From assembly GCF_001552075.1 (NCBI RefSeq), contig NZ_BCQM01000005.1, positions 1 through 64,000 on the forward strand: a DNA stretch of 64,000 bases, read 5' to 3'. Each line of letters starts with the position of its first letter. The first letter of the stretch is position 1. The notes beneath the pieces are model-generated. The model made no database searches. It saw nothing but the letters and a program-made list of their open reading frames with translations, and had not been told where the DNA came from. Below, piece by piece: positions 43,295 through 45,294 of this stretch. The stretch is from Arthrobacter luteolus NBRC 107841 (GTDB lineage: Bacteria > Actinomycetota > Actinomycetes > Actinomycetales > Micrococcaceae). The position numbers and the translations under genes are program-made.

Positions 43295-44677
43295 CTAGAA
43301 GCCGGAGCCGCCCTCGACCGCCATGTTGGAGAACCGGGAGTAATGGCCCTGGAAGCCCACCACGATGGTCTTGGTGGGGCCGTTACGGTGCTTGGCCACG
43401 ATCACGTCGGCTTCGCCGGCGCGCGGAGACTCCTTGTCGTAAATGTCTTCACGGTGCAGCAGGATGACCATGTCCGCGTCCTGCTCGATCGAGCCCGATT
43501 CGCGGAGGTCGGAGACCATGGGCTTTTTATCCGTACGCTGTTCCGAACCACGGTTCAGCTGGGACAGGGCGATGACCGGGACATCGAGTTCCTTGGCCAG
43601 CAGCTTCAGGGCTCGGGAGAACTCGGAGACTTCCTGCTGGCGCGATTCCACCTTCTTGCCGGAGGACATCAGCTGCAGGTAGTCCAGGACCACCAGTTTG
43701 AGGTCGTGCCGCTGCTTCAAACGGCGGCATTTGGCCCGGATTTCCATCAGGGACATGTTGGGGCTGTCATCGATGAACAGCGGGGCATCATTCATCCTGC
43801 CCATGGTGGTGGCGATCTTGCCCCACTGTTCGTCCTTGATCGTTCCCTTGCGGAGGTCCTGCAGCCCGATCGTTGCCTCGGCGGAAAGCAGGCGCATGGC
43901 AATCTCGTTCCGGCCCATTTCCAAGGAGAAGAACACGGTGGTCATGTTGTTCTTGATTGCCGCGGACCGGGCAAAGTCGAGGGCAAACGTGGATTTACCC
44001 ACGGCCGGGCGGGCAGCTATAACGATCATCTGGCCGCCGTGCAGGCCCTGGGTCAGTTCGTCGAGCTCGTAGAACCCGGTAGGGACACCGATCATGCCCT
44101 CACCGCGGTGCCCGGCGGATTCGATCTCGTCCACCGTGCCCTCGATGATGTCCTTCAGCGGAACATAGTCCTCCGCCGTGCGGCGCTCAGCCACGGCATA
44201 CACCTCGGCCTGCGCCGCGTTGACGATGTCGTCGACTTCCATGCCGTCGCTTGAGTAGCCCAGCTGGACAATCTTGGTTCCTGCGTCCACCAGCCGGCGC
44301 AGCACCGCACGTTCCCGGACGATCTCCGCATAGAACCCGGCGTTTGCCGCGGTCGGCACGGACTGGATGAGCGTGTGCAGGTAGGCGGGACCACCGATCC
44401 GGCCAATTTCACCGCGCTTCGTCAACTCATCCGAGATCGTCACCGCATCGGCAGGCTCGCCGCGGCCATAGAGGTCGATGATGGCCTCGTAGATGGACTC
44501 ATGGGCGGGACGGTAGAAGTCCACGCCGCGCAGCACCTCAACGCAGTCGGCAATAGCGTCCTTGGAGAGCATCATGCCGCCGAGAACAGACTGCTCGGCC
44601 ACCAGGTCCTGCGGCGGGGTCCGGCCGAAATCCGAATTGCGGGTTGATTCAGCGGCATCCGCGTGAGCAAGCGACAC
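43295..44677 (-). CDS. dnaB: Replicative DNA helicase DnaB
   Basis: The hexameric 5'-3' helicase of the replisome, about 460 residues. The N-terminal primase-interaction domain begins PPQDLVAEQSVLGGMMLS. The RecA-like ATPase domain has Walker A ARPAVGKST, FSLEMGRNEI and Walker B LVVLDYLQLM. No intein interrupts it, unlike in several mycobacteria. GTG at 44675-44677 with GGGTGG upstream is preferred over the longer frame to 44710. It lies downstream of rplI on the same strand but is separated by a terminator and a 617-bp gap. Confidence 0.95.
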   Translation of the reverse strand: MSLAHADAAESTRNSDFGRTPPQDLVAEQSVLGGMMLSKDAIADCVEVLRGVDFYRPAHESIYEAIIDLYGRGEPADAVTISDELTKRGEIGRIGGPAYLHTLIQSVPTAANAGFYAEIVRERAVLRRLVDAGTKIVQLGYSSDGMEVDDIVNAAQAEVYAVAERRTAEDYVPLKDIIEGTVDEIESAGHRGEGMIGVPTGFYELDELTQGLHGGQMIVIAARPAVGKSTFALDFARSAAIKNNMTTVFFSLEMGRNEIAMRLLSAEATIGLQDLRKGTIKDEQWGKIATTMGRMNDAPLFIDDSPNMSLMEIRAKCRRLKQRHDLKLVVLDYLQLMSSGKKVESRQQEVSEFSRALKLLAKELDVPVIALSQLNRGSEQRTDKKPMVSDLRESGSIEQDADMVILLHREDIYDKESPRAGEADVIVAKHRNGPTKTIVVGFQGHYSRFSNMAVEGGSGF

Positions 44678-44873
44678 TATGGCCACCCTTTCCAAAAACG
44701 TTAGATCCATGGGCCCCGTCGGGCGGGCGGCATGAGGTTGTGGCTGTCTATCTGTCTACCCGACGGCACTGACACCGGCTGGGCCGCCAGTGCCTTCGCC
44801 GTAACCTCTGCAGGTGCCCCGATGAAGGAGTCCACCGCAACCGTAGCCCCGTAAGGCCCCCTCAACAAACGAG

Positions 44874-45109
44874 TTATCCACAGGCACTGTGGATACCTTG
44901 TTCATAACTGGGCGTGTCTTGTGCACAGGTTGGGCATAAGGTTGTGGATAACAATTTATTTTCTGCCCAAATATGGCTCTGACTTGGGAAAACACTCGTC
45001 CACACCTGTGCACAGAGAAGTATTTTCCTCAACATTCATCCTCTACCTTCAGGTTGACAGATCACTTTAGGGGGCGTAGCAGCGCCATTATCCACAGTCG
45101 ATATCCACA
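44874..45109. other. Cluster of DnaA boxes in the dnaB-rplI gap
   Basis: Three perfect TTATCCACA boxes lie at 44874-44882, 44943-44951 (reverse) and 45088-45096. Near matches are GTATCCACA (44888-44896, reverse), TTGTGCACA (44919-44927), TCGTCCACA (44996-45004) and ATATCCACA (45101-45109). An AT-rich stretch with AACAATTTATTTT follows the second perfect box. DnaA should bind here. The locus is not next to dnaA or rpmH within the window, so it may regulate dnaB or titrate DnaA rather than be the origin. Confidence 0.75.
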
Positions 45110-45233
45110 TACCTGTGGGCTTCCGAAAACTACTTGGAATAATCAGCCTGCGTAGCTTCCATCACCGGCAATGGATGTGCTTGACGGCACAGGAAAACCG
45201 GGGTCCAGGCCCGGCAGGCTCACGCCTACACGC

Positions 45234-45268
45234 AAAAGCGCCCCCCGCCGAAGGCGGAGGGCGCTTTT
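45234..45268 (-). terminator. Terminator of the rpsF-ssb-rpsR-rplI operon
   Basis: AAAAGCGCCC...CCGCC pairs with GGCGG...GGGCGCTTTT around GAA, a stem of ~16 bp with one mismatch, flanked by A and T runs on both sides. It lies 26 bp after the rplI stop and may work in both directions. Confidence 0.9.
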
Positions 45269-45294
45269 AGTCACGCAGTGCGCAACGGGCGGTG

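Follow-up and report, generated by a model that had tools for sequence, protein, structure and literature searches.

The closest described counterpart of the locus studied here comes from mycobacteria, for which Hicks et al. 2020 report five DnaA regions, one of them upstream of dnaB (PMC7738170). DnaA occupies this upstream region in M. tuberculosis, as determined by IDAP-seq in vitro, and in M. smegmatis, as determined by ChIP-seq, and dnaB is under-expressed in M. tuberculosis carrying a DnaA mutant that binds the region less (PMC7738170). Since 113 genes are changed in the I282T DnaA mutant, the effect on dnaB could be indirect (PMC7738170). In a literature search for DnaA together with "upstream of dnaB", the study by Hicks et al. 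was the only report found, and class-wide conservation of the dnaB array was found in none of the matches listed, a search that covered titles and the beginnings of abstracts, mostly from the open rather than the subscription literature.

Streptomyces coelicolor clusters of DnaA boxes are few and lie near oriC, which is also true of the clusters in this genome. The oriC-proximal clusters of S. coelicolor are reportedly those named H69, H24 and D78 by Smulczyk-Krawczyszyn et al. in 2006. The dnaB gene of Bacillus subtilis encodes a helicase loader and not, as here, the replicative helicase. The initiation-restraining clusters of B. subtilis are likewise close to oriC (Okumura et al. 2012, as cited in PMC4585315 and PMC5742627), and these reviews describe box clusters that repress untimely initiation in both S. 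coelicolor and B. subtilis (PMC4585315, PMC5742627). For Escherichia coli, DnaA prefers paired boxes separated by 2-3 bp, which corresponds to a step of 11-12 bp (PMC11317965).

We analyzed a 64,000-nucleotide stretch of DNA (hereafter the window; contig C5:1-64000) from a genome of 3.92 Mb, in which a cluster of DnaA boxes is located directly upstream of dnaB. The locus resembles the mycobacterial dnaB region in place, being upstream of dnaB and near oriC, and in being one among a handful of DnaA regions, and counterparts of the mycobacterial oriC, dnaA-promoter and crgA-side regions are also present in this genome. Binding has been demonstrated in mycobacteria, whereas here it is predicted from the boxes. 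The minus-strand genes around the array include rpsF, ssb, rplI and dnaB, as identified by Pfam, with rpsR presumably situated between ssb and rplI (Table 1). The encoded DnaB is 97% identical to that of Arthrobacter koreensis, and its start is most likely the GTG at 44677 on the minus strand because a sequence resembling a ribosome-binding site, GGAAAGGG, is found upstream. A sigma-70 promoter scan of the rplI-dnaB gap found none. A consensus scan detected four terminator-like hairpins in 801 bp, versus 0.9 in shuffled sequences, two of the four being the box pair S7/S8. A small open reading frame at 44756-45013 is crossed by indels in an alignment of the gap from 31 loci.

Table 1. Features of the dnaB upstream region (window positions; negative distances are in bp from the dnaB start).
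Feature	Position	Strand	Remarks
dnaB, replicative DNA helicase, 460 aa	43295..44677	-	Pfam DnaB_C E 1.9e-107; N-terminal domain E 6.8e-34
rplI-dnaB gap, 617 bp, with DnaA-box array	44678..45294		7 sites with at most 1 mismatch to TTRTCCACA
Best-conserved array core, sites S4-S8	44868..44960 (about)	-	Genus conservation profile
S8, perfect box TTATCCACA	44874..44882	+	-205
S7, near box GTATCCACA	44888..44896	-	-219; inverted pair with S8, 14-bp step
S5, near box TTGTGCACA	44919..44927	+	-250; within stretch CTGTGCACAAGACACGCC
AT-rich stretch, 50 bp, 66% AT	44936..44985		Inside box cluster; centre little conserved in alignment
S4, perfect box TTATCCACA	44943..44951	-	-274
S3, near box TCGTCCACA	44996..45004	+	-327
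S2, perfect box TTATCCACA	45088..45096	+	-419
S1, near box ATATCCACA	45101..45109	+	-432; 13 bp from S2
Terminator-like hairpin 3' of rplI	45239..45256	-	Consensus scan
rplI, ribosomal protein L9	45295..45744	-	Pfam L9 C domain E 1.9e-24; N domain E 2.5e-20

An earlier note on this DNA had counted three perfect and at least four near-perfect boxes on both strands, and this count holds: the gap carries three perfect copies of TTATCCACA and four sites that are one mismatch away from TTRTCCACA, with S6 represented in the window by a two-mismatch site only. Half of the 14 sites in the whole 64-kb window that have at most one mismatch to TTRTCCACA fall within the rplI-dnaB gap. In 3,000 first-order Markov simulations of the gap sequence, there were 0.29 sites on average and 4 at most, such that none had seven, and three perfect boxes were never reached. 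The box cluster in the gap is thus real and far above chance. The same note had pointed to an AT-rich stretch, which exists but is modest, since AT content is 44% over the whole gap and 66% in the richest 50-bp segment, which begins at 44936, compared with 68% in oriC.

Conservation in relatives, the absence of which the earlier note had named, together with a lack of DnaA binding in vivo, as grounds for abandoning the idea, was found in full within the genus: at least three boxes within 600 bp upstream of dnaB are kept in 28/28 genomes, which is the entire genus set, and the backward-motif control attains this number in 1/28. The same measure gives 7/9 for the family (eight same-family genomes and one more), 23/28 for the order (20 matched genomes of the order and further matches, with genome G040 counted twice), 63/86 for the class (44 automatic best-match loci and 42 loci hand-picked for family spread before boxes were counted, one search spanning 148 genomes) and 70/80 for named loci (the top 80 from a pool of at least 591 candidates, with many from Streptomyces). 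Outside the class but within the phylum, the count is 2/31, obtained from loci hand-picked among the matches listed, one per family, in a sample that stops short of the most distant lineages. These 600-bp intervals include coding DNA where rplI was unmapped and, in the other classes, where gaps are short. The backward control with three or more copies is 0 in the family, order, class, named and other-class sets alike, and perfect copies of the backward motif occur upstream of dnaB at one family, four class and three named loci.

With each of 44 actinomycete families represented by its first locus, we found at least three boxes within 500 bp in 29/44 and at least one in 41/44, with no control locus having three or more; random picks per family gave 27-32 of 44 with at least three boxes, and the family-averaged fraction is 0.69. 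These figures supersede those from hand-picked sets of 69 and 44 loci, which were chosen after box counts had been listed and of which the 44-locus set yielded 31/44 with at least three boxes and 42/44 with at least one. Judged by motif matches, a box array is found in most of the sampled actinomycete families.

Several lineages have no such array near dnaB. No box is present within 600 bp in two Nesterenkonia loci (L079 and L085), in Rothia (L076), in Sediminivirga (L073) or in a Brachybacterium (L089), and none is present within 500 bp at the first loci of families f6, f11 and f100; therefore, the class as a whole does not depend on the array. Together with Kocuria (L044), the genera named here are Micrococcales in which boxes are few or absent over the 600 bp before dnaB. 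Genome G033 (family f1) has no box in the 700 bp upstream of dnaB, and because that genome still has tightly spaced pairs of perfect boxes at other places, loss at dnaB is suggested rather than an altered box sequence.

At finer scale, the alignment of the gap from 31 loci, this one included, shows a majority agreement of 93% in box columns versus 68% elsewhere. Across 29 genus loci (this genome included), S8, the anchor of the comparison, is found in 29/29, and the sites in register with it include S4 in 29/29 (at most one mismatch) and S5 and S7 in 28/29 each. With a tolerance of 40 bp on either side, which lets a single site satisfy both S1 and S2, S3 is present in 26/29; the S6 site occurs in 17/29. 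The spacing of the core in the genus is nearly fixed. Outside the genus set, the core pattern around S5 was seen only in L023, L034, L036, L045 and L144.

Some conserved sequence in the gap extends beyond the boxes. The stretch CTGTGCACAAGACACGCC (about 44910-44928), of which a weak DnaA box forms only part, is nearly invariant in the genus and is also found in L023, L036, L045 and L144. Other conserved non-box elements of the genus are CTGTCAACC, at about 45050-45058 and containing TTGACA on the plus strand, and CCTAGTCAGAG at 44975-44990, with no promoter called.

The arrangement of the boxes also has a regularity that extends over the class. Among 115 non-redundant family, order and class loci, this one included, same-strand spacings peak at 11-12, 21-24, 32-33, 43-45, 53-56, 64-67 and 76 bp, and pairs that point toward and then away from dnaB peak at 14-15, 24, 35 and 80 bp, with the 14/15-bp inverted pair (as in S7/S8) recurring in other families. 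For 93 same-strand distances from 44 families, the Rayleigh statistic peaks at a period of 10.8 bp with nR2 of 42.6, as against a maximum of 10.6 in 2,000 uniform sets. Random family picks gave a mean nR2 of 43 and a minimum of 30, although shared ancestry inflates this statistic and the per-family and random picks reduce that inflation rather than remove it. In the hand-picked sets, nR2 was 82 (184 distances, 69 loci) and 42.3 (85 distances, 44 loci; position-jitter maximum 7.9), and opposite-strand distances are more weakly periodic (nR2 13.8). A spacing of about 10.8 bp is what a DnaA filament confined to a single face of the helix would need.

The core in the window fits this period, having same-strand steps of 55, 77 and 45 bp, whereas S1/S2, the outer pair, does not share its helical phase, the distance from S2 to S3 being 92 bp. 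The closest same-strand step in actinomycetes, 11-12 bp, leaves 2-3 bp between boxes and is thus like the pairs of the E. coli DnaA regulon (PMC11317965); unlike those pairs, the closest in the window are 13 and 14 bp apart. Class-wide, 301 boxes upstream of dnaB are oriented toward the gene and 110 away from it, versus 2 toward and 5 away in this window.

It is also possible to ask which neighboring gene the array accompanies. At 35 named loci in which rplI is at least 1.4 kb away (mostly Streptomyces, the interval between rplI and dnaB being split at its longest open frame), there are 121 boxes in 16.9 kb on the dnaB side, 0 in 3.9 kb on the rplI side and 42 in 51 kb inside the frame. Boxes therefore keep to the dnaB side when rplI is distant, and the array goes with dnaB. 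Distance to the origin is less informative. The array is 52 kb from the dnaA-dnaN gap and is thus a non-oriC cluster close to oriC, and dnaB is no more than 100 kb from dnaA in 80/85 class genomes, with a median of 42 kb over 83 of the 85, the other two being G037 (35 kb) and G378 (47 kb); these distances were taken on the same contig without wrapping, excluding genomes in which the interval is split between contigs or spans a contig end. With the two genes close together in almost every genome measured, position cannot separate control of the gene from a reservoir function.

The genome contains few other clusters of this kind. In its 3.92 Mb there are 27 copies of TTATCCACA, three of which are in the rplI-dnaB gap, compared with four copies of the backward-letter control, and 52 copies of TTRTCCACA compared with 22 for its backward control. 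Two or more perfect TTRTCCACA per 600 bp are found at three sites only, namely the rplI-dnaB gap (3), the dnaA-dnaN gap (3) and the rhomboid-crgA gap (5), with dnaA, dnaN, crgA and the rhomboid gene assigned by Pfam, and all three groups are within about 53 kb of oriC. When one mismatch is allowed, the first 120 kb of the contig hold 51 sites, and three or more per 600 bp occur in the same three gaps (7, 7 and 11 sites, respectively) and at the upstream region and start of dnaA (5 sites). The last of these, at contig C5:95634-95798 (L002) and outside the window, consists of five box-like sites, one of them perfect, and is consistent with autoregulation of dnaA. Over the same 120 kb, the cumulative GC skew is lowest where the 110-115 kb bin ends, beyond the crgA cluster and not exactly at the dnaA-dnaN gap (contig C5:110001-119999).

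In five genus members with single-contig genomes, TTATCCACA reaches a density of two or more per 500 bp only near 2 kb, near 15-16 kb and at dnaB toward the contig end, distances that are approximate because genome sizes were rounded; the first two groups are taken, by position, as oriC and the crgA side. In one of these genomes, G001, there are four further, looser sites around 2.66 Mb. A third non-oriC TTATCCACA group was not found at the 500-bp scale in any of the five, unlike in a single-contig genome of family f21, which has groups of perfect boxes at dnaB, 22 kb to the opposite side of dnaA (presumably the crgA side) and 85 kb away from dnaA, as well as further pairs at 1.71 Mb and at distances of 36 kb and 5 kb from dnaA. 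The f21 dnaB arrays match those of named Streptomyces loci. The group 85 kb from dnaA (G454:C1:3714693-3714999) comprises three perfect boxes and is possibly the D78 cluster of Streptomyces. Of the Streptomyces clusters, H24 might be equivalent to the dnaB cluster.

The larger array near crgA is of particular relevance to the mycobacterial comparison. It is found 3' of crgA, toward the rhomboid gene (L003 11653-12125, contig C5:111652-112124), outside the window, and has 11 sites, five of them perfect. We take the mycobacterial gene Rv0011c to be crgA. On this basis, four of the five regions described by Hicks et al., whose set also includes Rv3843c-RVnc0040, are matched here by gene neighborhood (PMC7738170). 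For the DnaA site between Rv0010c and Rv0011c of M. tuberculosis, that study saw no obvious counterpart in other species (PMC7738170). We examined the best 30 crgA loci from 117 genomes with a match, a sample in which families f21 and f22 are over-represented and from which one truncated locus (L294) was dropped. At least two boxes within 600 bp on the 3' side are present in 24/29 loci, this genome included, versus 0/29 on the 5' side and 0/29 for the backward control. Because 3' clusters are this frequent, we propose that the crgA-side cluster is probably the conserved counterpart of the "cryptic" mycobacterial site, as these counts suggest. The orientation of its boxes is mixed (53:42), in contrast to the trend at dnaB, and in this genome it occupies the 3' ends of two convergent genes.

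Our preferred explanation, to which we assign a probability of roughly 0.6, is that the gap carries a DnaA-binding array acting as the upstream control region of dnaB, which ties helicase supply to the initiator and may also buffer DnaA. This was one of three roles proposed in the earlier note and is the best supported of them, being favored by the array's attachment to the dnaB side and, by analogy, by the mycobacterial dnaB data described above (PMC7738170). An alternative is that the cluster mainly holds free DnaA near oriC and thereby restrains re-initiation, with any control of dnaB being incidental. The confinement of the three perfect TTRTCCACA groups to about 53 kb around oriC, the restriction of TTATCCACA groups in the five closed genomes of the genus to three places (near 2 kb, near 16 kb and dnaB), the location of dnaB within 100 kb of dnaA in 80/85 class genomes, and the repression of untimely initiation reported in reviews for S. 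coelicolor and B. subtilis (PMC4585315, PMC5742627) would all agree with such a reservoir. However, the array follows dnaB rather than rplI, the crgA cluster, with its 11 sites at convergent 3' ends, looks better suited to this purpose, and the distance to oriC hardly varies, so position does not discriminate. We regard titration as an unlikely primary function, albeit one to be taken seriously, and as a possible second role, given that box clusters are found within about 53 kb of oriC. It is much less likely that the array acts beyond mere binding, as a datA-like or DARS-like element working on the DnaA-bound nucleotide through hydrolysis or ADP/ATP exchange, even though its tightly spaced inverted and direct boxes of conserved geometry are a point in favor of this.

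Conservation in the gap could also mainly reflect binding of a different regulator, or an RNA, with the boxes being incidental. Conserved non-box stretches such as CCTGTGCACAAGACACGCC and CTGTCAACC do exist, but box columns outscore the rest of the gap in conservation, the boxes recur across families while the S5 core pattern extends beyond the genus set to five loci only, and no Rfam family reached threshold, which makes this explanation improbable. As an RNA element the gap was rejected, the sole Rfam match having an E value of 0.16, far below the gathering score, and covering the rplI terminator. A single-strand hairpin in the array core (z -2.3) is expected from the inverted box pair S7/S8. 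The remaining role raised in the earlier note, an ancillary replication origin element, found some encouragement in the combination of boxes with a stretch whose AT content, 66%, approaches that of oriC (68%). Nevertheless, the standard oriC context, a dnaA-dnaN gap with seven sites, is 52 kb away, and the GC-skew analysis that the note had called for, run over 120 kb, gave no clear minimum at dnaB. Moreover, the AT-rich stretch is inside the cluster, whereas unwinding regions, according to a review, flank box clusters and are never amid them (PMC4285127). The dnaB array thus has neither a flanking unwinding element nor a clear skew minimum nor a dnaA/dnaN context, and on the strength of skew, AT-stretch position and a standard oriC context elsewhere we rejected the origin proposal, which we consider exceedingly unlikely.

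If the array does control dnaB, DnaA would be predicted to assemble on the boxes that are 205-432 bp upstream of the dnaB start, with the core boxes along the same helical face. How much DnaA is present, or in which state, would then set dnaB transcription, most likely through activation, such that helicase supply would track the initiator. Because dnaB is 52 kb from oriC, each copy of the array would hold several DnaA molecules soon after initiation and may add a small buffering effect. We infer DnaA binding in this organism, activation over repression, the position of the promoter and buffering, and the step from boxes to control of dnaB would follow from the mycobacterial data by analogy. 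The array is a well-supported further case of the known association between DnaA and dnaB; what is new is the phased geometry that extends across the class and the link to the crgA side.

A more speculative proposal, which we hold only tentatively and would not expect to be correct in full, is that Actinomycetes share a DnaA circuit of four oriC-linked arrays, located at the dnaA promoter, at oriC, in the 3' flank of crgA and upstream of dnaB. In such a circuit, the dnaB array would be a helically phased platform for a DnaA filament, sensing how much DnaA there is or which nucleotide it carries and setting helicase supply accordingly, and the crgA array would be a conserved DnaA sink or exchange site, a counterpart of datA or DARS. 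If this is true, the "cryptic" mycobacterial Rv0010c-Rv0011c site would be an ancient control element and not an oddity of one lineage. How DnaA is limited in actinobacteria, including mycobacteria, streptomycetes and soil Arthrobacter, is poorly understood, and the phased dnaB array together with the conserved crgA array would provide two small DNA targets with which this could be tested.
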